Shown here: positions 1,836 to 25,344 of the stretch, piece by piece
Layout of the letters: each line of letters starts with the position of its first letter
How positions within the stretch are numbered: the stretch's first letter is position 1
Origin: Fibrobacterota bacterium
GTDB taxonomy: Bacteria; Fibrobacterota; Fibrobacteria; UBA11236
Direction of reading: 5' to 3'
NCBI GenBank assembly: GCA_028287505.1
Contig: JAQBPN010000086.1
Coordinates: 1 to 32,281, forward strand
DNA length: 32,281 nt
Notes under the pieces: model-generated
The model's database searches: none
What the model saw: only the letters and a program-made list of their open reading frames with translations
Told to the model about the DNA's origin: nothing
Translations under genes and position numbers: made by a program

Positions 1836-2280
1836 CTTTGCTTTGGACATGCACATCTTGTGGCCTTCTCAAGCCAATTAGGTTGTACTTGAAATTTTTT
1901 GGGTCATCGTTTTTGTTTCGACCTATGTCTTTTCTTATTTCCAATACGAGACGCTTCAATTTGATGTCATGTCCTTCATGCGTTCTGTTTTTGTTTTCCA
2001 TAGAAATTTCCATTCGAAAATCCATTGCCGCATTGATAACTGATTGAGGAGCAACAAGAGCAATCGTATTCATCTCCACGTTAAACTTTTGATTTGACTG
2101 TTCAGCGTCCCTTGTTTGATCGGCCAAGTCTGAAATTGACTTCAAAAGCTCCTTGTAGTGCTTTATTCTTTCATCGATCCATTTCTCTCTTCTTTCAAAC
2201 CTTTTATTTATCAAGTAACCCACGGAACCTGTAAGTACAGCTCCCACGATTCCAATTATCGATAATAAAATATTTTCCAT
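1828..2280 (-). CDS. Membrane-anchored coiled-coil protein, unknown function
   Basis: The 150-residue product begins with one transmembrane helix (about residues 4-24, rich in I, L, V and G), followed at once by a basic, charged helical region (INKRFERREKWIDERIKHYKELL) that should be cytoplasmic and form a coiled coil. The tail is soluble. Small single-span proteins of this design are common in cassette arrays and phages; no function can be assigned. Its stop codon lies within the core of attC b. Only 50 bp, without an attC, separate it from the 2331-2759 gene, so the two share one cassette and are probably co-transcribed. Confidence 0.7.
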   Translation of the reverse strand: MENILLSIIGIVGAVLTGSVGYLINKRFERREKWIDERIKHYKELLKSISDLADQTRDAEQSNQKFNVEMNTIALVAPQSVINAAMDFRMEISMENKNRTHEGHDIKLKRLVLEIRKDIGRNKNDDPKNFKYNLIGLRRPQDVHVQSKGQ

Positions 2281-2330
2281 CTCTCTATCCTTTTTTATCG
2301 CTCTGCCAAATTCATCGATGGTGGAACCAT

Positions 2331-2759
2331 CTATGGCTCAATAAGGTACTCTTTCATAATGCTCAGTATGTCTTCGGATGGCCTACCCATATTATACCCA
2401 CCGTTTATTATCCATGAATCCGTGTTTTTCAAATTGCAAACCAATGCAACTTTTTCGAGGGCTTCATCGTGAGGATACAGATACCACCCGTGCTTACCCT
2501 GAAACATCACGTAAATATTCTTGCCCTCGTACTTTTTTCCAAATGAAAGACGGCCTTTCAATTGAATTTTAAGCGTGATTTCACCGCTGATATGATGGGC
2601 TAAGAAATCTGCGCCGTTCCAATCGTCATCTAACTTTAAAGCGGCGAAGCCATAATCTGCAAGAACGGCGCCAGCCTTTTGAAAGTTAAACCGTTCCTGT
2701 TGTCGAGATTCAAGTTCCGCATAGTTAATTCGGCCAACTTCTTTGCCTTCAACTTTCAT
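2331..2759 (-). CDS. PD-(D/E)XK-like hypothetical protein
   Basis: The 142-residue product belongs to a widespread family of uncharacterised proteins whose signature is FNFQKAGAVLADYGF, DDWNGADFLA, QLKGRLSF and GWYLYPHDE. The Asp in NGADF (D51) followed fifteen residues later by QLK (Q66, K68), with beta strands between, resembles the active-site pattern of restriction-endonuclease-like folds with Gln in place of Glu. That assignment is inference from the motif. The start at 2759 has AGGAAT just upstream. It is the first gene of a two-gene cassette. Confidence 0.7.
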   Translation of the reverse strand: MKVEGKEVGRINYAELESRQQERFNFQKAGAVLADYGFAALKLDDDWNGADFLAHHISGEITLKIQLKGRLSFGKKYEGKNIYVMFQGKHGWYLYPHDEALEKVALVCNLKNTDSWIINGGYNMGRPSEDILSIMKEYLIEP

Positions 2760-2839
2760 CTTTTATTCCTCGTCTTTGGCCGTAGGCCTCAGCTTCTTTA
2801 ACCAAGGCCCGAATAGGGCCCACTATTCTACCCCTGTCC

Positions 2840-2936
2840 GTGTAACAACTGCTTAAGCCGTGAGCACGGACGGAGGGCCGGGACGGACAGCCCGCAGTGT
2901 CACCGGCGCGCAATCGACTTGATCCCTTTGTTATGC
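2840..2936 (-). other. attC site c (short type)
   Basis: Left core GTGTAAC (2840-2846), left inner box CTTAAGC (2852-2858), central GTCACCGGCGCGCAATCGAC, right inner box ending GACTTGATC, right core GTTATGC (2930-2936). The reverse complement of the right half reads GATCAAGTCG against GCTTAAGCCG on the left, showing the additional C typical of the L'' box. Total 97 bp. Confidence 0.85.
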
Positions 2937-2973
2937 GGGCGTACCGTAGCTCAACTCGGTATTCTTATTCTTC

Positions 2974-3495
2974 TCAAATATTTGGTTCAACACCGTCTCG
3001 ATCTCTTATGACTCCGATGAAAATTCCTTCTAGGCCTAGTATGGAAGAAATCAGGTCGTCAATTGCTTTGGAAAAATCTTCCTTCAGAAGTCCTGGAACA
3101 ACTGGTGAATTACTCAAGTCTCTTATGTTCGGAATCATCACTTGCCAAGATCCTTCTGGTAGTTGTTTCATTGCAAGTGGATTGTGGGCTATAACATTTC
3201 TTAAGGAATAAATTTGTTTGATTCTTCCCAAAAGGGCCCGAACTATTTTTAATTCTGTTTCCTCTTTGATTTGTTCATTTACAAATCCGTATATCAATCC
3301 AATCCTGAACTCGAAGTCCTGATTCTTTGCCTTTTCAAATTTATCCCCGCCTATCCAGGTTAACCACTTATATGTCTGAAGCTCTGCGTTTCCCATATTT
3401 ATAAAGAATGCACCGACAAGGCTCGCCCACTCTTTTGCTCCCGCTCCATTTATCTCGATCCCTGCTTTTCTCAATCCCGAGTAACCTACAGTCAT
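2974..3495 (-). CDS. HEPN-like helical protein
   Basis: The 173-residue product is predicted mostly helical. It carries SLRNVIAHNPLAM around residues 98-109: R99 followed by four residues and H104 (RNVIAH). The Rx4-6H motif is the RNase signature of HEPN domains found in toxins, abortive-infection proteins and CRISPR effectors. The general helical layout before the motif (a long helix, then IKQIYSLRN) also fits. No partner antitoxin gene is in the same cassette. Function as an RNase or defence protein is inference; many HEPN-like proteins with this motif remain uncharacterised. Confidence 0.7.
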   Translation of the reverse strand: MTVGYSGLRKAGIEINGAGAKEWASLVGAFFINMGNAELQTYKWLTWIGGDKFEKAKNQDFEFRIGLIYGFVNEQIKEETELKIVRALLGRIKQIYSLRNVIAHNPLAMKQLPEGSWQVMIPNIRDLSNSPVVPGLLKEDFSKAIDDLISSILGLEGIFIGVIRDRDGVEPNI

Positions 3496-7957: not shown

Positions 7958-8866
7958 ATGATGAGAAGAATCGTTCCGACCCTGGCCCTGGCTCTCCTGA
8001 CCGCCGCCTGTACCGCGCCCCGCTCCGTCCTGCTATCCCCGGAGGCCCTGCCCAAGGGACGCTGGGAGGCGGGCGCGGGCATGGACTTCAACGTTCCCAC
8101 GCAAACCTCGGATGCGCTGAGCGACGGCCTGAAACAAGGCGTGGGCATGCTTTACGATGATGTTTCCAGTCACGACGTCACCGCCATCTCCGCGGACAGC
8201 CTGAACGTGTTCGCCAAGGCGCTGGTTGCCTATTCGGTCGATCCATTGGGCGCGCAGCCGGGGTTGTTCATCCGTTACGGCTTCTGGCCCCGCCTGGACG
8301 GAGGCTATCACTATACCGGAGGGGCGCATGCCTTCGATCTCCGCTGGCAATTCCTGGGGGCCAAGGCCGGGGACACATTGGCGTCCGGCCAATCGGCGTG
8401 GCAAGCGAGCGTGGGAGCGCAATACAGCTGGCAGAGCTTCGATCTGCCTTCGGTGGCGGGCTTGGACAAACTGCAGGAGATCCTCCAGTACGAGTTCAAG
8501 CGCAAGGACATCCTGATTCCCCTGATGGTGGGCAGGCCTTTTGGGGAACATGGGCGTTACGGGGGGTTCGGGGTGGGGGCCGCATACAATCTCAGCTTCG
8601 TCCAATACGGATCCGACGTGGTCAAATTGGTGGAACAGAAGTCGGACGGCACCACCGCGGCCTTCGCGCCCTTGCGGGGCGACAAAACCATATCCTCCTA
8701 CGGCGGCTTCGCCAATGTCCGCGCGGGCTACCGCTGGGTCTACTTGGTGGCGGCCATGTCCGCATATTGGCAGGACTACGGGGAGTTCGATCTGTTCGGC
8801 GGGAAAAGCGTGGAGCTCAAGGGTTGGACGTATCTTCCGTCCGCGGCCTTGGAGTTCCGCTTCTAG
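7958..8866 (+). CDS. Outer-membrane lipoprotein with beta-barrel features
   Basis: The 302-residue product starts with a lipoprotein signal (MMRRIVPTLALALLTAAC) whose Cys follows LTAA. The body alternates aromatic and hydrophobic residues typical of strands (LFIRYGFWPRLDGGYHYT, GFANVRAGYRWVYLVAAMSA) and ends in EFRF with a terminal Phe, as outer-membrane barrels do. I chose the ATG at 7958 because GGGAAG lies nine bases upstream; a frame opening at 7901 adds residues before the signal and is unlikely. No homologue of known function is recognised. It converges on rlmN with only 3 bp between stops. Confidence 0.75.
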   Translation: MMRRIVPTLALALLTAACTAPRSVLLSPEALPKGRWEAGAGMDFNVPTQTSDALSDGLKQGVGMLYDDVSSHDVTAISADSLNVFAKALVAYSVDPLGAQPGLFIRYGFWPRLDGGYHYTGGAHAFDLRWQFLGAKAGDTLASGQSAWQASVGAQYSWQSFDLPSVAGLDKLQEILQYEFKRKDILIPLMVGRPFGEHGRYGGFGVGAAYNLSFVQYGSDVVKLVEQKSDGTTAAFAPLRGDKTISSYGGFANVRAGYRWVYLVAAMSAYWQDYGEFDLFGGKSVELKGWTYLPSAALEFRF

Positions 8867-8869
8867 CCT

Positions 8870-9988
8870 CTAAGTGACAGCCGGGCTGGTTTCGCCCGCG
8901 AGGGATCGCGCGCCCGTCCGGCGCAGGGCCCGGTTCCCCAGCTGGCCGCAGGCCGCCATGGAATCTTTTCCCTTGGTGCCGCGGATGCGGCAGTATTGTC
9001 CCGCTTCCATGAGCCAATGGTAGAAGTCCGCCACGCCGTCCTTTTCCGGGCGGCCATAAGGCGAATCCAACCTGGGATTGTACGGGATCAGGTTCACGCA
9101 GGCTTTGAGATCGCGCAGGTATTCCGCCACCTCCAGAGCGTGTTCCTTTGCATCGTTGACTCCGGCCAGGAGCACGTATTCCATGAACAGGAAATCGTCC
9201 TTGTGCGCCAAGGGGAAGTTCCGCAGGGCCTCCTTGAGCGCCGCCAGCGGCCATTGCCGGTTGATGGGCATGATACGGGAACGGATGGCATCGTTGGGAG
9301 CGTTGAGGCTCACGGCCAGGCGCAGGCGCGAGAAGCCATGCGGGGGCGGCTGGGCGGCCAGGCGTGCCAGACGGTTGATGCCGTCCACGTGGCCTACCGT
9401 GGAAACGGTGATGGCGGACTGGGCGATGTTGAGGCCGCGCTGATCGGAAAGGATGCGGACGGCTTGGAGCACGTTGTCGAGATTGTCCATCGGCTCGCCC
9501 ATGCCCATGAAGACCACGTTCTGGATGGGCTCTTTGAGGACGTGGCGGGCGACCATCACCTGGGCCACGATTTCGCCCGCGTCCAGGCTGCGCAGATAGC
9601 CCATCTGGGCGGTCTCGCAAAAGGTGCATCCCATCTTGCAGCCCACCTGGGAAGAGATGCACAGGGATTTGTACTGGCGCATGGGAATCACCACGGATTC
9701 GCTTTCCAGACCGTCGCGCAGCTTCAGGATGAACTTATAGGTCTCGCCATCCCCGGAGCGGCCGGCTTCCCGGGGCAATGCGTACTGGAACGCGCCGCGC
9801 ACGGCTTGGGCCAGGGATGGGTTGGCGGCGAACTCGGGCAGAAGCCCGGGATCGGATTCGCCGCGGCGATACAGGGAGCGGAACAGGGCGCCGGCATGGT
9901 ACTCGCCCTTGCCGAAGCGGCGGTCGAACTCGGCGGTCAGGCCGTCGTAGTCATAGCGGAGGATGTCGTCCGGGCCGGAGAGTGGCAT
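8870..9988 (-). CDS. rlmN: 23S rRNA (adenine-2503-C2)-methyltransferase RlmN
   Basis: Radical-SAM enzyme that methylates A2503 of 23S rRNA, and some tRNAs, in the cytoplasm. The iron-sulphur cluster motif is C117-x3-C121-x2-C124 (GCKMGCTFC). The two mechanistic cysteines of the family are present: C110 seven residues before the cluster and C347 in MAACGQLGN. Other signatures are VVFMGMGEPMDN, AITVSTVG and AVSLNAPND. The residues after the cluster read CETAQMG rather than the usual CATGQ-type sequence, a variant I associate with a subgroup of RlmN-like proteins. Length (372) is normal. The minus-strand start at 9988 has AGGATCC upstream. Confidence 0.92.
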   Translation of the reverse strand: MPLSGPDDILRYDYDGLTAEFDRRFGKGEYHAGALFRSLYRRGESDPGLLPEFAANPSLAQAVRGAFQYALPREAGRSGDGETYKFILKLRDGLESESVVIPMRQYKSLCISSQVGCKMGCTFCETAQMGYLRSLDAGEIVAQVMVARHVLKEPIQNVVFMGMGEPMDNLDNVLQAVRILSDQRGLNIAQSAITVSTVGHVDGINRLARLAAQPPPHGFSRLRLAVSLNAPNDAIRSRIMPINRQWPLAALKEALRNFPLAHKDDFLFMEYVLLAGVNDAKEHALEVAEYLRDLKACVNLIPYNPRLDSPYGRPEKDGVADFYHWLMEAGQYCRIRGTKGKDSMAACGQLGNRALRRTGARSLAGETSPAVT

Positions 9989-10089
9989 GGATCCTATATA
10001 CTTAAAATCCCCCGCGGCCGGAAAGGCGCGGCATGTCCTTGGGTTTGGAAGTTATAGCTTGGACGGGCGCGGCCGGCCGGAAGCCCGGC

Positions 10090-10794
10090 TCAGGCCTCGA
10101 TGGAAAAAGGCGTGAAGCGCGTGTCCTTGTCGAAATAATCCTCCTGCTCGGCCTTCTTCAGGAAGATGACCACGCGATAGGTCACCGGAGTCATCACGAT
10201 TTCCCAACCGGTCTTGAGGAGGTACTGGACCATGGCCACTTTTATCACGTCCCCCGTGGCCCAGATGCCGGCGAAGGCGATGACATAGAACAGGGAGGAG
10301 TCGACCAGCTCGCCCACCAAGGTCGATCCGATGGTGCGGATCCACAGCCAGCGGCCGTTGGTTTTGATCTTGAGCTTGGCCAGGGAATAGCTGTTGGCGA
10401 AGCTGCCGGCCCAGAACGCGATCATCGATCCCGCCGCGATCCGCCAGGCGTTCCCGAACACGCCCTCCAGCTGTCCCTGATAGGACTTCATCCATTCGCT
10501 GTCCGCGGCCGGAAGATGGACCACCACCCAGGCCATGAAGGAGGCGAATGCGAGCGCGCCGAATCCGGCCCAGACCACGCGCCGATCCCGCGCGTATCCG
10601 TACACTTCCGTCAGCACGTCCCCGAAGATATAGGAGATGGGGAAGAACAGCACGCCCGCGCCGAAGGTGACCTTCCCCAGGAAAGGCAGGGTCACCACCG
10701 CCTGTTTGGCCGCGCCGATGAAGTTCGAGCACAGCAGCACCGTCACGAAGGCCGCCATCACCAGGTCATAGTACTTGTATTGTCGCTTCTGCAT
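10090..10794 (-). CDS. yhhQ: Queuosine precursor transporter YhhQ
   Basis: The 234-residue product is a multi-pass inner-membrane protein of the YhhQ/VUT family, which imports queuosine precursors such as preQ0 and preQ1. Recognisable segments are LLCSNFIGAAK near the N-terminus, GVLFFPISYIFGDVLTEVYGY (about 48-68), RTIGSTLVGELVDSSLF (about 152-168) and a C-terminal VIFLKKAEQEDYFD. The gene follows the MgtC-family gene by 100 bp on the same strand; two strong hairpins occupy that gap, one of them ending against the ribosome-binding site GAAGGGAAG. Confidence 0.9.
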   Translation of the reverse strand: MQKRQYKYYDLVMAAFVTVLLCSNFIGAAKQAVVTLPFLGKVTFGAGVLFFPISYIFGDVLTEVYGYARDRRVVWAGFGALAFASFMAWVVVHLPAADSEWMKSYQGQLEGVFGNAWRIAAGSMIAFWAGSFANSYSLAKLKIKTNGRWLWIRTIGSTLVGELVDSSLFYVIAFAGIWATGDVIKVAMVQYLLKTGWEIVMTPVTYRVVIFLKKAEQEDYFDKDTRFTPFSIEA

Positions 10795-12541: not shown

Positions 12542-13426
12542 ATGAATTCACTGCAGTCGCGCATAAGGGAATTGAAGCCGGCCGCCATTCTCCTGTATTT
12601 GTCCCTGATGGGGTTCCTCAGCATCTTTTCCGTGCAGAAATATCTCGGGCTGGGCTTCGAACCGCTCAACTGCCTCAGCTTCATGGGCATCATTTTCGGC
12701 GTATACACGCTTAACCGGTTCACGGATACCACCGAGGATTTCACCAACGATATCGGCCGCCTGCTGTTCTTCCAGCGCAAAAGGGCTTTCCTGTTCCTGG
12801 CGGAGGCATCGCTGGCCGCCAGCATCGGCATTCTACTGTACGTGGGAAAGTTGAACTGGATGCATTTCCTGCTTCTGGCGATGGGCTTTGGATATTCCTA
12901 TCGGCTGGTGCCTTGGTATTCGCGCACCCGGGGCTTCCGCATGTTGCGGATCAAGGAAATGACCTTCGTGAAGAATCTGGCCGTGTCCTTCCTGTGGAGC
13001 TCCTCCGTCTTCGTCGTGCCCGTGCTGTATTCGGGCGCGGCCGGCTTCGACAGGGTCATGGTCTGGCTGCTTGCCGGCGGCCTTTTCATAAGCACCTTCA
13101 ACAACACCCTGTTCGATGACATCATGGACGAACCGGGCGATCGCGTCGCCGGCATCAAGACCCTGCCCACCCTTTGGGGCGGCCGCAAGTCGATAGCGCT
13201 GCTGATGACCGTGGACGTGGCCTGGCTGCTGGCCGTGGCGGCGTTGCGGCTCGCGGGGCGGATCGACTCCGGGCACGCGGCCTTTCTGGCCTTCCTGGGA
13301 TTCTATCCCTTCCTGTACCTGGGATTGTATTCGCGCAAGACGGTGCCGAGCGCATGGATCGATATCCTGTCGGAAACGGATCTGCTCTTCTTCGCTTTGG
13401 GCATGCTGATGCTCAGCGTCCGCTGA
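12542..13426 (+). CDS. UbiA-family prenyltransferase
   Basis: The 294-residue product is an integral membrane protein of eight to nine helices. It has both aspartate-rich motifs of the UbiA superfamily: N58-R59-x2-D62-x3-D66 (NRFTDTTED) and D192-D193-x2-D196-x3-D200 (DDIMDEPGD), which bind Mg and the prenyl diphosphate. The family joins prenyl chains to quinone rings, haem, chlorophyll or lipids; the substrate cannot be read here. The ribosome-binding site GGAGG precedes the ATG at 12542. The gene is alone on its strand and converges with the histidine kinase. Confidence 0.8.
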   Translation: MNSLQSRIRELKPAAILLYLSLMGFLSIFSVQKYLGLGFEPLNCLSFMGIIFGVYTLNRFTDTTEDFTNDIGRLLFFQRKRAFLFLAEASLAASIGILLYVGKLNWMHFLLLAMGFGYSYRLVPWYSRTRGFRMLRIKEMTFVKNLAVSFLWSSSVFVVPVLYSGAAGFDRVMVWLLAGGLFISTFNNTLFDDIMDEPGDRVAGIKTLPTLWGGRKSIALLMTVDVAWLLAVAALRLAGRIDSGHAAFLAFLGFYPFLYLGLYSRKTVPSAWIDILSETDLLFFALGMLMLSVR

Positions 13427-21388: not shown

Positions 21389-21614
21389 TCCACAATCCGC
21401 GCCGATACGGGTTCTGATTTCGATCGTCGGGTTGGTGGTCTATTCGCCGGGGGGCGAGATTGGTTTCTCGCGGCGGGTAATGTGTGGGTCGCGTTAGTTG
21501 CAATGTGGGTTTCGCTCGTCGTTGGGTTTCGAGCGGGTGGGAGAGTGGGTCGCGGAGGCGGCAAAGAAGTTATGACGCAGGATTGGGTCGGGGGTCGATT
21601 GGGGCTCGCCGCGG
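21389..21614. other. Gene-free G/T-rich stretch
   Basis: Plus strand is rich in G and T. Long frames on both strands here have strange composition (Pro/Ala/Arg or Gly/Val only) and no family resemblance. I see no gene. Confidence 0.5.
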
Positions 21615-21805
21615 TTCGGTGGGGTGGCTGTTGGAAAACCGCGCGGCGCTTAGGGGGTGGCGCGATCCTGTGTAGACTGTTGGAAAGGCGCGCGGCGTTG
21701 GGGGTGGCGCGATTCGGTGGGTTGATTGGAGAAATACGCGCGGTGTGTGGGGTGGCGTGGTTCTGTGGGGCGGTTGTTGGAAAGGCGCGTGGCGTTGGGG
21801 TCAGG
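21615..21805. repeat. Four imperfect tandem repeats of 45-51 bp
   Basis: Units 21615-21665, 21666-21712, 21713-21760 and 21761-21805 each hold TGTTGGAAA (or a near variant), GCGCGG and GGGGTGGCG in the same order. They are rich in G and T on the plus strand and run into the last codon of the methyltransferase gene. Confidence 0.65.
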
Positions 21806-22619
21806 TTTTTTTGGCGTAGCCTAGGTAGGAGATGTTGAGGGAGGGGGTGAAGGTGAATTTGAAGTCGTTGGGGACGCGGCGGGTGGCGAGCATTTGCCAG
21901 AATGGGCGGCCCAGGCGGGGGCGCATGCCGATCATTTCGGCGGTTTGCAGGCCGCTTCGCGCGCAGTAGGCGCTCATTTCCCTGGGCTTGATGAAGAGGG
22001 GGAGGACGTGCATGCGTTTGGGGGTGTTGCGGACGAACCATTCCAGGCCTTTGATGACGATGAGCCAGGCGAGGTAGTTGCGATTGAAGGTGTGGAAGAA
22101 GAAGAGGCCGCCAGGGCGGAGGACCCGGGCGGCTTCGGCGATGACCCGTTCCGGGGCGGTTACGTGTTCCAGGAAGTCCAGGGCGGTTACGGCGTCGAAG
22201 GAGGCGTCGCGGTAGGGGAGGCGGTAGGCGTCGGCGACGCGGTACATGGCGGGAGTCGGGGCGCGGGAGGCGGCGACCTTGAGGCTGCCGCGGGACATGT
22301 CCACGCCGGAGACCGTGTGGCCCTCGGCGGCCAGGGCGTTGGCCAGGAAGCCGGCGCCGCAGCCGATGTCGAGGATGCGGCCGGGGGCGGCGTTGCGGGC
22401 GGAGCGGATGCGTTGGGAAACCCAGGGGTTCTTGAGTTCGCCTTCCGCGCGCAGCAGGGCTACCGGATCATCGTAGGCTTCGTACCAGCGCTCTCCCAGG
22501 TTGTCATAGAAGGCGTTGTTGACCGTGGCGAGGTCCGCGGCGGCGGTGGCCGCGGGCGGACCGGCCGGGATTTCGGCGGGGAGGGCGGTCAGGGTGTCGC
22601 GGGCAGGGCTGGTTTCCAT
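21801..22619 (-). CDS. SAM-dependent methyltransferase, UbiG-like
   Basis: The 272-residue product is a class I methyltransferase. The SAM-binding loop is ILDIGCGAGF (82-91), then GVDMS, DAVTALDFLEHV and RVLRPGGLFFFHTFNRN, the pattern of UbiG/Coq3 O-methyltransferases. I prefer the ATG at 22619, which overlaps the end of the preceding gene by 31 bp; a GTG at 22649 is possible. As last gene of the type III PKS operon it probably methylates a hydroxyl of the product. Confidence 0.85.
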   Translation of the reverse strand: METSPARDTLTALPAEIPAGPPAATAAADLATVNNAFYDNLGERWYEAYDDPVALLRAEGELKNPWVSQRIRSARNAAPGRILDIGCGAGFLANALAAEGHTVSGVDMSRGSLKVAASRAPTPAMYRVADAYRLPYRDASFDAVTALDFLEHVTAPERVIAEAARVLRPGGLFFFHTFNRNYLAWLIVIKGLEWFVRNTPKRMHVLPLFIKPREMSAYCARSGLQTAEMIGMRPRLGRPFWQMLATRRVPNDFKFTFTPSLNISYLGYAKKT

Positions 22620-23113
22620 GGTCCGTTCCAGTAGAGGAGTTGATAGCACAGGAAGAGGGCGGTGAGGACGGTCTGGCCCGTGAGGAAAAGGGCGAAGAAG
22701 GCGCGGCCGGCGTCGGGAGCGAGGTCGGCGGGGAGGGTGGCCTGCAGGTTACCGTAGGGGGCGAAGACCGGCGCGAAGCGCCAGGCTCCGGCGATTCCGA
22801 GCAGGATGGGGTGCATGACGAAGAGGAATGCGTGCAGCCACATTTCGCCGCCCGAGCAGCGGCGCGCGTGGATCCACTCGTCCTTGGTGACGAACAGGGA
22901 GGAGAATGCCGCCGCCGATACGTAGAGCGCGAGACCGCCCCGGGTGGGGGGCAGGGCCAGCGCGAGGGTGTAACAGGCGAGCACGGTCAGCGTGTCCAGG
23001 GGATGGCCCCAGCGTTCCCAGGGCGGGAGATTGCGGCGGCGATGGAACCAGGCTTCATCGAGAAGCATTCCCAGGGAATGCACCAGGAAGGGGATGGGAG
23101 CCAGGCGCCACAT
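22589..23113 (-). CDS. Membrane protein of a type III PKS operon
   Basis: The 174-residue product has four to five transmembrane helices. A conserved-looking block DEWIHARRCSGGEMWLHAFLF then HP has E, H, C, E, H and H in positions that could bind metal; LLDEAWFHRRRNLPPWERWGHPLDT near the start adds two more His. I recall similar proteins beside type III PKS and methyltransferase genes in other Gram-negative bacteria, none characterised to my knowledge. The start at 23113 is four bases past the PKS stop. An enzymatic role in processing a lipid product is possible. Confidence 0.7.
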   Translation of the reverse strand: MWRLAPIPFLVHSLGMLLDEAWFHRRRNLPPWERWGHPLDTLTVLACYTLALALPPTRGGLALYVSAAAFSSLFVTKDEWIHARRCSGGEMWLHAFLFVMHPILLGIAGAWRFAPVFAPYGNLQATLPADLAPDAGRAFFALFLTGQTVLTALFLCYQLLYWNGPWKPALPATP

Positions 23114-23117
23114 GGGG

Positions 23118-24284
23118 TCAGGCTTTGCGGAGCATGGCGCCGTAGACGGTGAGACCGGGACCGAAGGCCAGGCTGGTGATGAGGGTGCCGGGAGCCACCG
23201 TGTCATCGGCAAGCATGGCGGCCCAGACATGCGGCAGGGTGGCCGAAGACATGTTGCCGTAAGCCTTGAGGGCCGCGCGGCTCGCCGCCACCTGTGCGGG
23301 TTGCAGTTCCAGCAGATCCGCGACCTTGTCTATGATCCGGGGTCCGCCGGGGTGCACGGCGAACAGGCTCTTGGAAAGGGCCTCGGACGGGTCCGCGCCC
23401 ACGCGGTCGAACATCCGCCGCAGGAATCCCTTCAGGGCCCCCGCGATGAGATCGGGCACTTCCCGGGCCAACATCATCTTCATCCCCCTGTCGCCCAGGA
23501 TCCAACCCATGGCGCCCAGGGACCCAGGTATGATTTCTTCGTGCACTCCCAGGAACCGCAATCCCTTGCCGCCGTCGTCGGGGCGCACGCTGTAACGGAT
23601 ATGGCCGTCCGAGAAAAGGCTTTGCACCACCAACTGTTCGGGAACGTGCTGACTGGGGTCCAGATGCAGGGTGCAGGCTTCCGTGTGGACGATGTCCACG
23701 CGCGCCGGAACGGAAGAACGGACGCGGGGCGATGCGGTGAAGGCCGATGCCATGCGCAGGGCAGGCATGGATGCGTAACATCCCATATGATATGCGTGCA
23801 TGACCCCGGTGCTTTCCTGCCAGCCCCGGCGCGTCACCAGTTTCTGCGCGGCGCTGGGCGCCACGTAGCCGGTGCAGGTTACGTGAATGATTTCACCGGG
23901 AGGAGGATCCGCGTCGGCAGGATAGAACTCTTCCAGCATCCGGTCGGCGATTTCCGAAAACACCTCCATGCGCGCGTGCATGCCCGCTCCGCGAGGATCC
24001 TTTTCCAGGTTGAACAGGCGCATGCGCTCCCAATCCAGATGGAGGAAATCCTCCAAATCGTGCCCGCGGGCGGCCAGACTGTCCGGGCCGCATCCGAAGC
24101 GGGCGACGTACCGTTCCATGGAACGGCGGAACGCTTCGCCGTCGAAGCCGGAGCCCCGGGATACCGTTTCGGACTTGGCGTGGGCGGAGGAAAGCCAGCG
24201 TACCGATGCCGCGTGATCCGCCGAGTACCGGGGCCGCAGGATGCGGAAGTCTCCGATGAGGCCTTTCGACGGAAAATCGGCCAT
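23118..24284 (-). CDS. Type III polyketide synthase
   Basis: The 388-residue product has the thiolase fold of chalcone-synthase-like enzymes. The catalytic triad maps to C169 (HMGCYAS), H311 (AVHPGGPRIID) and N344 (YGNMSSATLP). The last segment ends with SLAFGPGLTVYGAMLRKA, including the GFGPG-like loop. Bacterial relatives condense long acyl starters with malonyl-CoA to give alkylresorcinols or alkylpyrones. GAGGAA is six bases upstream of the start. It leads the operon with the membrane protein and the methyltransferase, which points to a methylated phenolic lipid or pyrone. Confidence 0.85.
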   Translation of the reverse strand: MADFPSKGLIGDFRILRPRYSADHAASVRWLSSAHAKSETVSRGSGFDGEAFRRSMERYVARFGCGPDSLAARGHDLEDFLHLDWERMRLFNLEKDPRGAGMHARMEVFSEIADRMLEEFYPADADPPPGEIIHVTCTGYVAPSAAQKLVTRRGWQESTGVMHAYHMGCYASMPALRMASAFTASPRVRSSVPARVDIVHTEACTLHLDPSQHVPEQLVVQSLFSDGHIRYSVRPDDGGKGLRFLGVHEEIIPGSLGAMGWILGDRGMKMMLAREVPDLIAGALKGFLRRMFDRVGADPSEALSKSLFAVHPGGPRIIDKVADLLELQPAQVAASRAALKAYGNMSSATLPHVWAAMLADDTVAPGTLITSLAFGPGLTVYGAMLRKA

Positions 24285-24319: not shown

Positions 24320-24345
24320 AAAAGCCCGGCGGGAGCCAGGCTTTT
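24320..24345 (-). terminator. Rho-independent terminator
   Basis: AAAAGCC and GGCTTTT arms, extended by GGC/GCC through one wobble pair, around a TCCC loop. It follows the secreted-protein gene on the minus strand by about 30 bp and stands 36 bp ahead of the PKS start, so the PKS promoter must lie in or just after it. The A/T ends make it usable in both directions. Confidence 0.65.
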
Positions 24346-24375: not shown

Positions 24376-25344
24376 CTACCGGGAGTAGAAGAATTTGCCC
24401 AGAATGCGGGCGCCCGATTGCACGAAATAGACGCCCGTGGGGGCTTCCGCGCCGGAGGCGGTCCTTCCGTTCCACTGGTAGAGGTAACCGGTGGGGTGCA
24501 GGGTCGCGATCTTGTTTCCCATCATGCCGTACAGGCTCAAGGGCTCGCTGGAATTCGCGGCCTTCTCACCGGGCTGGATCAAGACCAGGTTGCCGGTCTG
24601 GCTGACCTGGAAGCCCGAGGCCTTGGGCTTCACGGAAGCGATGCGTGTAATCGGCGTTTCCATGGAGTCATAAGTGATGTGGATCAACTGCACGGTGAAG
24701 TCGACATTGCGCGTATCGGTATTGACGGAATCCTTCCACTGGTTGAGAAGGGTTGCGGACAGCTCCGCGGAATCCGGAAAACTCGTCAATTCCGAATAGT
24801 AGTGGGTGAAGGTGCCGGTGATGGCGCCCGTGCCGCTGCGGATGGTGCGCTTCATGGTGGCGTTGCCGTACCACATGTCCAGCTTGGACTTGGCTTTGAA
24901 CTTTCCGATCGCTTCATACAGCGAAATGGAAGTGCCGCTGACGGAGGAGGCGAATCCGAACCAATACTCGTCCCATCCGGGTTTCTTGAACTGGAACTCG
25001 CCGTCGTTGATTTTGACCGAGTAGTCGCTGGTGGCTTCCACGGCGAACTTGGATTCCCCGCGCTTGCGTTTGGCGAATTTGACTTCCTTCTTGACCCAGG
25101 CGTCGCAAGTGCCCGTGCCGTCCCAATCGGTGATCATCCGATATTCGGTGGAATCATTCAGCAAGGTGGCGGCGTTCATTCCCTTGTCGACATGAACGGC
25201 CGCGCCTTGTTGTTTCAACGTGGCGAGGGCGGAGCCCGTGAGCATGAATTGGGTGGCGTCCTGGAGATGATAGGTCTGGTTGCAAACCGAAGCGCCTACC
25301 CATGCCGCCAGAATGAGACCCGTAAGAACCGTTAGTTTTTTCAT
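24376..25344 (-). CDS. Secreted protein with a C-terminal sorting-type domain
   Basis: The 322-residue product has a signal peptide (MKKLTVLTGLILAAWVGAS). The middle (about 30-230) is an unrecognised, mostly beta domain with Trp-rich motifs such as WDEYWFGFAS. The last 80 residues (LYGMMGNKIATL, YLYQWNGRTASGAEAPTGVYFV) form a FlgD/Por-secretion-like beta domain ending in a short basic tail, a layout common in Fibrobacterota and Bacteroidota. Secretion by a type IX-like route is inferred from that tail. A terminator follows. Confidence 0.75.
   Translation of the reverse strand: MKKLTVLTGLILAAWVGASVCNQTYHLQDATQFMLTGSALATLKQQGAAVHVDKGMNAATLLNDSTEYRMITDWDGTGTCDAWVKKEVKFAKRKRGESKFAVEATSDYSVKINDGEFQFKKPGWDEYWFGFASSVSGTSISLYEAIGKFKAKSKLDMWYGNATMKRTIRSGTGAITGTFTHYYSELTSFPDSAELSATLLNQWKDSVNTDTRNVDFTVQLIHITYDSMETPITRIASVKPKASGFQVSQTGNLVLIQPGEKAANSSEPLSLYGMMGNKIATLHPTGYLYQWNGRTASGAEAPTGVYFVQSGARILGKFFYSR

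Follow-up and report, generated by a model that had tools for sequence, protein, structure and literature searches.

A type III polyketide synthase operon of Fibrobacterota that encodes an apparently undescribed and strongly conserved membrane protein

Introduction

In the closest described three-gene pathways, a type III polyketide synthase (PKS) is accompanied by a methyltransferase and by a hydroxylase or oxidoreductase, and the products are alkyl-resorcinols or alkyl-quinones; the quinones of the Mycobacterium and Streptomyces pathways carry electrons (PMC9927152, PMC8086630, and PMC10896814, in the portions available). The present work concerns an operon located on the minus strand of contig JAQBPN010000086.1 (assembly GCA_028287505.1). 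This contig, taken in full (32,281 nucleotides) and referred to as the window, belongs to a genome of 6.07 Mb that has Fibrobacterota as its relatives. As far as the available descriptions go, the operon shares with srsABC (Streptomyces), pkqABC (Mycobacterium), hidABC (cyanobacteria), and a planctomycetal operon a resorcinol-type PKS, a methyltransferase, and a third tailoring gene; however, in all these systems the third gene encodes an oxidoreductase or hydroxylase, whereas here it encodes an unrelated membrane protein, hereafter MEM. The operon also differs from these systems in having a UbiG-like methyltransferase and a PKS of the ArsB/ArsC clade. The latter clade is that of Azotobacter vinelandii, whose two PKSs, according to the accessible part of PMC6274091, belong to the ars operon together with a fatty acid synthase, ArsA; in our PKS tree, ArsC is placed within the MEM-linked PKSs.

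The pathway class is known; the MEM family is new to the libraries and to the literature searched. We propose, giving the idea about an even chance, that MEM is a membrane oxygenase that replaces the flavoenzyme in a modified 5-alkylresorcinol pathway.

Results and Discussion

The type III PKS and its product

The genes and sites of the operon are the following (basis of the assignment in brackets).

23118..24284, minus strand: type III PKS of 388 residues, ArsB/ArsC clade (Pfam, ArsC match, Cys-His-Asn)
23778..23780, minus strand: codon of the catalytic Cys169 of the PKS (coordinates by arithmetic from the residue number)
23502..23504, minus strand: codon of PKS Trp261, the cyclisation-switch position (Trp281 in ArsB, Gly284 in ArsC)
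23114..23117, minus strand: 4-bp gap from the PKS stop to the MEM start (sequence)
22589..23113, minus strand: MEM, a membrane protein of 174 residues with five predicted helices (start at the ATG at 23113)
22994..23059, minus strand: MEM motif 1, residues 19-40, DE...H..R.L..WE..GHP.D (family alignment)
22811..22903, minus strand: MEM motif 2, residues 71-101, S.....KDE..H.......E...H...F..H (family alignment)
21801..22619, minus strand: UbiG-like S-adenosylmethionine-dependent methyltransferase, 272 residues from the ATG (Methyltransf_11, UbiG model)

The original prediction, made from the sequence alone, had described the three genes as coupled, and this is borne out by the 4-bp gap and by the 31 nt over which the methyltransferase, when started at the ATG at 22619, overlaps MEM; its start is most likely either this ATG or the GTG at 22649. 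A longer MEM open reading frame (ORF) of 213 residues begins within the PKS gene, and the family alignment supports the shorter start. The PKS had been claimed to be complete, and indeed it passes both Pfam cut-offs (Chal_sti_synt_C, 85.7 bits, and Chal_sti_synt_N, 30.6 bits; cut-off 27 for each) and carries C169, H311, and N344 at the very positions given in that prediction. Its closest PDB sequences are those of ArsC (3vs9, E 7e-68; 3vs8, E 5e-66), the next best match having an E of 1.5e-24, and the comparison with wild-type ArsC gives 226.8 bits. In the PKS alignment, whose 87 rows represent 81 distinct genes (six were fetched twice), the catalytic Cys is found in 85 of the 85 readable rows, and the His and the Asn in 87/87.

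The ring type is set by the residue at the cyclisation switch, with Trp281 of ArsB leading to a resorcinol and Gly284 of ArsC to a pyrone (PMC6274091, in the part available); the role of this position is also covered in the accessible text of PMC9927152. The window PKS has a Trp there, as does ArsB on the same partial source, and a Trp occupies the position in all the 87 rows, unlike the Gly of ArsC; in the aligned structures, the residue is Gly in 3vs8 and Trp in 3vs9, which the available part of PMC6274091 identifies as the ArsC G284W mutant. Since the Trp is present in every row, a resorcinol appears likelier than a pyrone as the product, so that the earlier wording, "phenolic lipid or pyrone", is narrowed to a resorcinol-type phenolic lipid, its second half becoming less likely. 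On the whole, the operon pathway is likely to yield a resorcinol lipid. That the PKS makes alkylpyrones, on which the tailoring genes would then act, is improbable in view of the invariant Trp, even though the closest solved structure, ArsC, is that of a pyrone synthase (PMC6274091) and a myxobacterial type III cluster has been named an alkylpyrone cluster (PMC12766979; both sources in their available parts).

The PKS tree was built without six partial rows and without L012-L020; among the latter, L016, L018, and L019 have no duplicate in the retained set. Set A3 is composed of every second of the 70 usable PKS genes.

The methyltransferase and the quinone context of the genome

The methyltransferase matches Pfam Methyltransf_11 (E 4e-27) and reaches 126.8 bits against the NCBIfam UbiG model (cut-off 102.95), which confirms the UbiG-like enzyme of the original prediction. 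UbiG O-methylates polyprenyl-catechols; the gene under study shares with it a score over the cut-off, but is tied to a PKS, in a genome harboring two VitK2_biosynth genes (futalosine menaquinone family). A ubiquinone pathway was considered and is unlikely, given these futalosine-type genes and the fact that no ubiquinone hydroxylase over the cut-off was retrieved from the window genome (other Ubi genes were not searched genome-wide). MenD was searched for in 11 genomes without a hit above the cut-off, a result of little weight by itself. Annotation pipelines would label the methyltransferase gene UbiG, although a ubiquinone pathway is not evident.

The MEM family

Neither the single MEM sequence nor any of the 74 members of the family alignment (A2, drawn from 73 of the 80 loci described below) gave a convincing family in Pfam or NCBIfam; the hits were weak and scattered, the best of them, PF09656 (E 2e-4) and TIGR02611 (E 5e-4), each coming from one member out of 74, and they were taken as chance. 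Likewise, the sequence and the family profile retrieved nothing from the PDB sequences up to the E limit of 10, and the literature search, in which few subscription journals were covered, returned no recognisable description of MEM or of the cassette. The family is therefore apparently undescribed, and it is also strongly conserved: 21 positions are identical in 80/80 sequences (L077, which contains a run of X, was left out of the count), including five His, four Glu, and three Asp. Motif 1 contributes D19, E20, H24, R27, L29, W32, E33, G36, H37, P38, and D40, motif 2 contributes S71, K77, D78, E79, H82, E90, H94, F98, and H101, and a further invariant residue is Q158.

AlphaFold2 predicted with confidence a five-helix bundle for the window MEM (predicted local distance difference test, pLDDT, 91.6; predicted template modelling score, pTM, 0.86) and also a five-helix bundle for a compact Bdellovibrio relative (pLDDT 95.1, pTM 0.89). 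Foldseek searches with the two models gave no clear match (best E 1.4 and 1.9), and the viral library had none under E 1. With VIA-align, the best scores were those of bestrophin (Z 9.9, root-mean-square deviation, rmsd, 4.0, 147 aligned residues) and Gip1 (Z 9.7, rmsd 3.1, 133 aligned), while cytochrome b561 reached Z 6.3-6.5; all of them lie below the Z of 13 that helical bundles can reach without kinship.

In the models, the invariant residues are located at the C-end of helix 1, the N-end of helix 2, the C-end of helix 3, the N-end of helix 4, and the C-end of helix 5, that is, mostly at helix ends predicted to share one membrane face. Since the loop between helices 1 and 2 (mean of 3.0 Lys + Arg) and the C-terminus (mean of 2.4) are positively charged, this face is, according to the models, the cytoplasmic one, with the C-terminus inside; this agrees with the fusions to the methyltransferase reported below, which require an inside C-terminus. 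If the helices are treated as ideal, the angular spread is 80 degrees at most for E90, H94, F98, and H101, all on helix 4, and 100 degrees at most for S71, D78, E79, and H82, all on helix 3. The invariant polar residues probably form a metal site, and the Glu/His set distributed over four of the predicted helices might resemble a two-metal one. Glu/His motifs of the ExxH/ExxxH kind on several helices would be a feature shared with diiron membrane or interfacial enzymes such as COQ7, the alternative oxidase, and the membrane desaturases; the number and spacing of the MEM motifs are different from theirs. A transporter function found no support and was dropped.

Linkage of the cassette across phyla

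The GTDB species contigs were scanned with an alignment of nine MEMs, and 135 relatives were confirmed and 80 loci returned, belonging to Chlamydiota, Bdellovibrionota, Myxococcota, Fibrobacterota, Acidobacteriota, Pseudomonadota, and records titled Verrucomicrobia (some titles of metagenome-assembled genomes, MAGs, are doubtful). This neighborhood survey had been set beforehand as the test of the original prediction, and the type III PKS does co-occur with MEM, being present in 77 of the 80 loci (the exceptions are L045, L054, and L093, the last two at contig ends); a methyltransferase is present in 75 (all except L032 and L091, both at contig ends, L046, L084, and L093). Within the Fibrobacterota, MEM was found in nine of 61 genomes, the window genome included, which are the same nine that carry the PKS, and all three genes occur in the 8/8 related loci that were fetched.

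The genes are also tightly spaced: PKS and MEM are at most 30 nt apart in 71 of the 76 loci measured, with L034 counted among the five outside the limit on the basis of a false gap of 1166 nt, although its ORF ends at 7974 and its MEM starts at 7977. In L018, one of the eight related loci, about 2 kb with two unrelated ORFs lie between the two genes. MEM and the methyltransferase are at most 60 nt apart in 63/67 loci, a spacing taken to the nearest possible start codon, which favors small gaps. Beyond the cassette, no neighbor recurs across phyla; those named by eye (Tpx in 20 loci, a TauE-like permease in 19, malic enzyme in 18, and an ATP/ADP translocase in 17) belong nearly all to chlamydia-like loci. 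Moreover, the pairwise protein distances are correlated (PKS-MEM 0.64, PKS-methyltransferase 0.75, MEM-methyltransferase 0.58; 0 of 1000 permutations as high) over 64 loci, 11 partial or unusual loci and those missing a gene having been dropped. A chance linkage of the three genes is ruled out by their recurrence across these loci and across the Chlamydiota genomes.

In L058, L083, L088, and L090, MEM and the methyltransferase form a single ORF. Since the fused loci fall in two separate groups of the PKS tree, Myxococcota and Oligoflexia, the fusion probably arose at least twice. Such fusions, together with the tight coupling of the genes, might suggest that MEM is a non-enzymatic membrane anchor, or a lipid-presenting partner, linking the PKS product to the methyltransferase; this is quite unlikely, however, since a role as an anchor gives no reason for 21 residues, five His and seven acidic ones among them, to stay invariant across several phyla.

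One record with the cassette, L087, is titled Chlamydia trachomatis. The title is very likely wrong, because Chlamydiaceae proved devoid of biosynthetic clusters in a published survey (PMC9666466, as far as its available part reports).

Two mutually exclusive layouts in Chlamydiota

Sixty-nine of the 232 Chlamydiota genomes harbor MEM, and 66 of these also harbor the MEM-type PKS; in the remaining three, MEM is fragmentary or close to a contig end. The MEM-type PKS without MEM was found in none of the 232 genomes. A second, distant PKS is encoded by 29 genomes, and none of the 29 has MEM. Fifteen of its loci were fetched (L107-L121), and in 13 of them the PKS has a methyltransferase and a flavin adenine dinucleotide (FAD) oxidoreductase in its neighborhood, the latter at a distance of about 2 kb in L120; the nearest NCBIfam model of this oxidoreductase is the geranylgeranyl-reductase superfamily, below its cut-off. 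The second arrangement is thus seemingly a flavin-type operon of the pkq/hid kind, and in Chlamydiota the two layouts, PKS-MEM-methyltransferase and PKS-methyltransferase-FAD, exclude each other. In L095, from a Myxococcaceae MAG (7959-10330), the order is changed, and the type III PKS that comes after MEM and the methyltransferase is a distant one, falling, on a long branch, on the side of the tree of the second layout.

Because the Chlamydiota layouts exclude each other, and because of the arrangement of L095, the simplest reading is that MEM carries out the redox reaction for which the other layout uses the flavoenzyme. Both the invariant polar site and this apparent exchange with an FAD oxidoreductase lend strength to the suggestion of the original prediction that the membrane protein may be a new tailoring enzyme. 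Most hosts of MEM have oxygen-reducing terminal oxidases, which fits the needs of an oxygenase, though this too follows lineage: COX1 or cytochrome bd was found in 66/69 MEM-bearing Chlamydiota versus 140/163 of the others, and COX1 in 9/9 MEM-bearing Fibrobacterota versus 5/52.

MEM might instead be a non-oxidative lipid modifier, e.g., a metal-dependent hydrolase, isomerase, or transferase working on the alkylresorcinol or its acyl chain, with the resorcinol hydroxyl being methylated directly. The invariant His/Glu/Asp site would equally suit a hydrolase or an isomerase, and HidA methylates a resorcinol without prior hydroxylation in hierridin (PMC10896814, in the part available); nevertheless, the exchange partner in Chlamydiota is an FAD oxidoreductase, which points to a redox step, and we consider this alternative unlikely.

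Several observations weigh against an oxygenase role of MEM. Within the Pfam, NCBIfam, PDB, and fold searches, MEM has neither a sequence link nor a clear fold link to a known oxygenase. L045, from a Blastocatellia MAG (2028-3253), has MEM and the methyltransferase away from a contig end, with the PKS in neither the locus nor the genome, pointing to either an incomplete genome or another source of the substrate; for L084, L046, and L093, no methyltransferase was found, either within the locus or by a genome search at E 1e-40. Two of the 15 second-PKS loci have no methyltransferase or FAD gene, three of the 69 MEM-bearing Chlamydiota have no terminal oxidase that was found, and what the FAD oxidoreductase does is itself still to be proven for some relatives (PMC10896814, in its accessible text). 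Finally, both the exclusion between MEM and the second PKS (naive p 1.6e-5) and the association with oxidases (naive p 0.04) track lineages, so that the events are not independent and these p-values overstate the case.

The proposed pathway

The resorcinol-type PKS with an adjacent methyltransferase is found here as in the srs, pkq, and hid operons. An adjacent FAD oxidoreductase or hydroxylase gene was found neither among the scanned window genes nor as a recurring neighbor in the 80 MEM loci and, because such a gene is missing, the operon is not classed as a member of that group, though it probably works like one. We infer the product, the metal, the oxygenation, the order of the steps, and the physiological role as follows. 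In a minimal pathway of three steps, the PKS would take a long acyl starter and three malonyl units and, through an aldol condensation, would release an alkylresorcinol; MEM, through a cytoplasmic-face site with probably two metal ions (iron being the most likely), would then oxidise this lipid on the surface of the membrane, the likeliest reaction being ring hydroxylation; lastly, the UbiG-like methyltransferase would O-methylate a ring hydroxyl. The outcome would be a membrane phenolic lipid of the modified 5-alkylresorcinol type, which might also be a redox-active quinone, and MEM would take over the role of the flavin oxidoreductase of the srs, pkq, and hid pathways without being related to it.

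A narrower idea, compatible with MEM being an oxygenase, is that the pathway supplies respiration with an electron carrier, namely a methoxylated alkyl-benzoquinone completed by MEM, rather than the membrane with a structural lipid. The gene logic is that of pkqABC, the products of which serve electron transport when oxygen is low (PMC9927152, in the available part), terminal oxidases occur in most hosts, and the compound would be a second quinone beside the one to which the two VitK2_biosynth genes of the window genome refer, as in actinomycetes. However, this product is itself deduced, and structural phenolic lipids, such as the Azotobacter cyst lipids, stem from the same PKS clade in the partial sources at hand; the idea is accordingly a tentative one, which we hold to be rather less than probable. 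Doubtful, though conceivable, is the claim that MEM founds a new class of dimetal oxygenases integral to the membrane, with no kinship to flavin monooxygenases, COQ7, or desaturases, and turning alkylresorcinols into methoxylated alkyl-quinones.

Surroundings of the operon

One further feature lies next to the PKS gene.

24320..24345, minus strand: terminator-like hairpin with an 11-pair stem, in the intergenic region between the upstream gene and the PKS (terminator scan)

The hairpin is likely the upstream boundary of the operon; the scan gave six sites versus 4.5 expected, and only the strength of this hairpin counts in its favor. The promoter scan of the window returned no promoter, and the Rfam and tRNA scans were both empty. 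Directly upstream of the operon, a putative secreted protein is encoded at 24376-25344, with a subthreshold C-terminus resembling a type IX sorting signal (CHU_C, E 0.17). At the other end, a GC-rich tandem repeat of 48 bp, in four imperfect copies (21610-21801), ends exactly at the methyltransferase stop; between a porin gene and this array, two nested pairs of inverted repeats are located (21177-21206/21362-21391, 97% complementary, and 21241-21260/21329-21348, 95%). A UbiA-type prenyltransferase gene (12542-13426; PF01040, 36.7 bits, cut-off 34.2) lies about 8 kb from the operon end, outside the conserved cassette.

Implications

The MEM family, found in 69 of the 232 Chlamydiota genomes examined as well as in several further phyla and lacking a convincing Pfam or NCBIfam entry, now has its own hypothesis of substrate and reaction. 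The membranes and the respiration of intracellular chlamydiae and of bacterial predators are poorly known. If MEM is an oxygenase, it would represent a new class of membrane enzymes, and an undescribed phenolic lipid or quinone would be present in these organisms; if the dimetal class set out above also proved true, a polyketide quinone would be formed alongside menaquinone, through a pathway not yet described, in environmental chlamydiae, bacterial predators, and aerobic Fibrobacterota.

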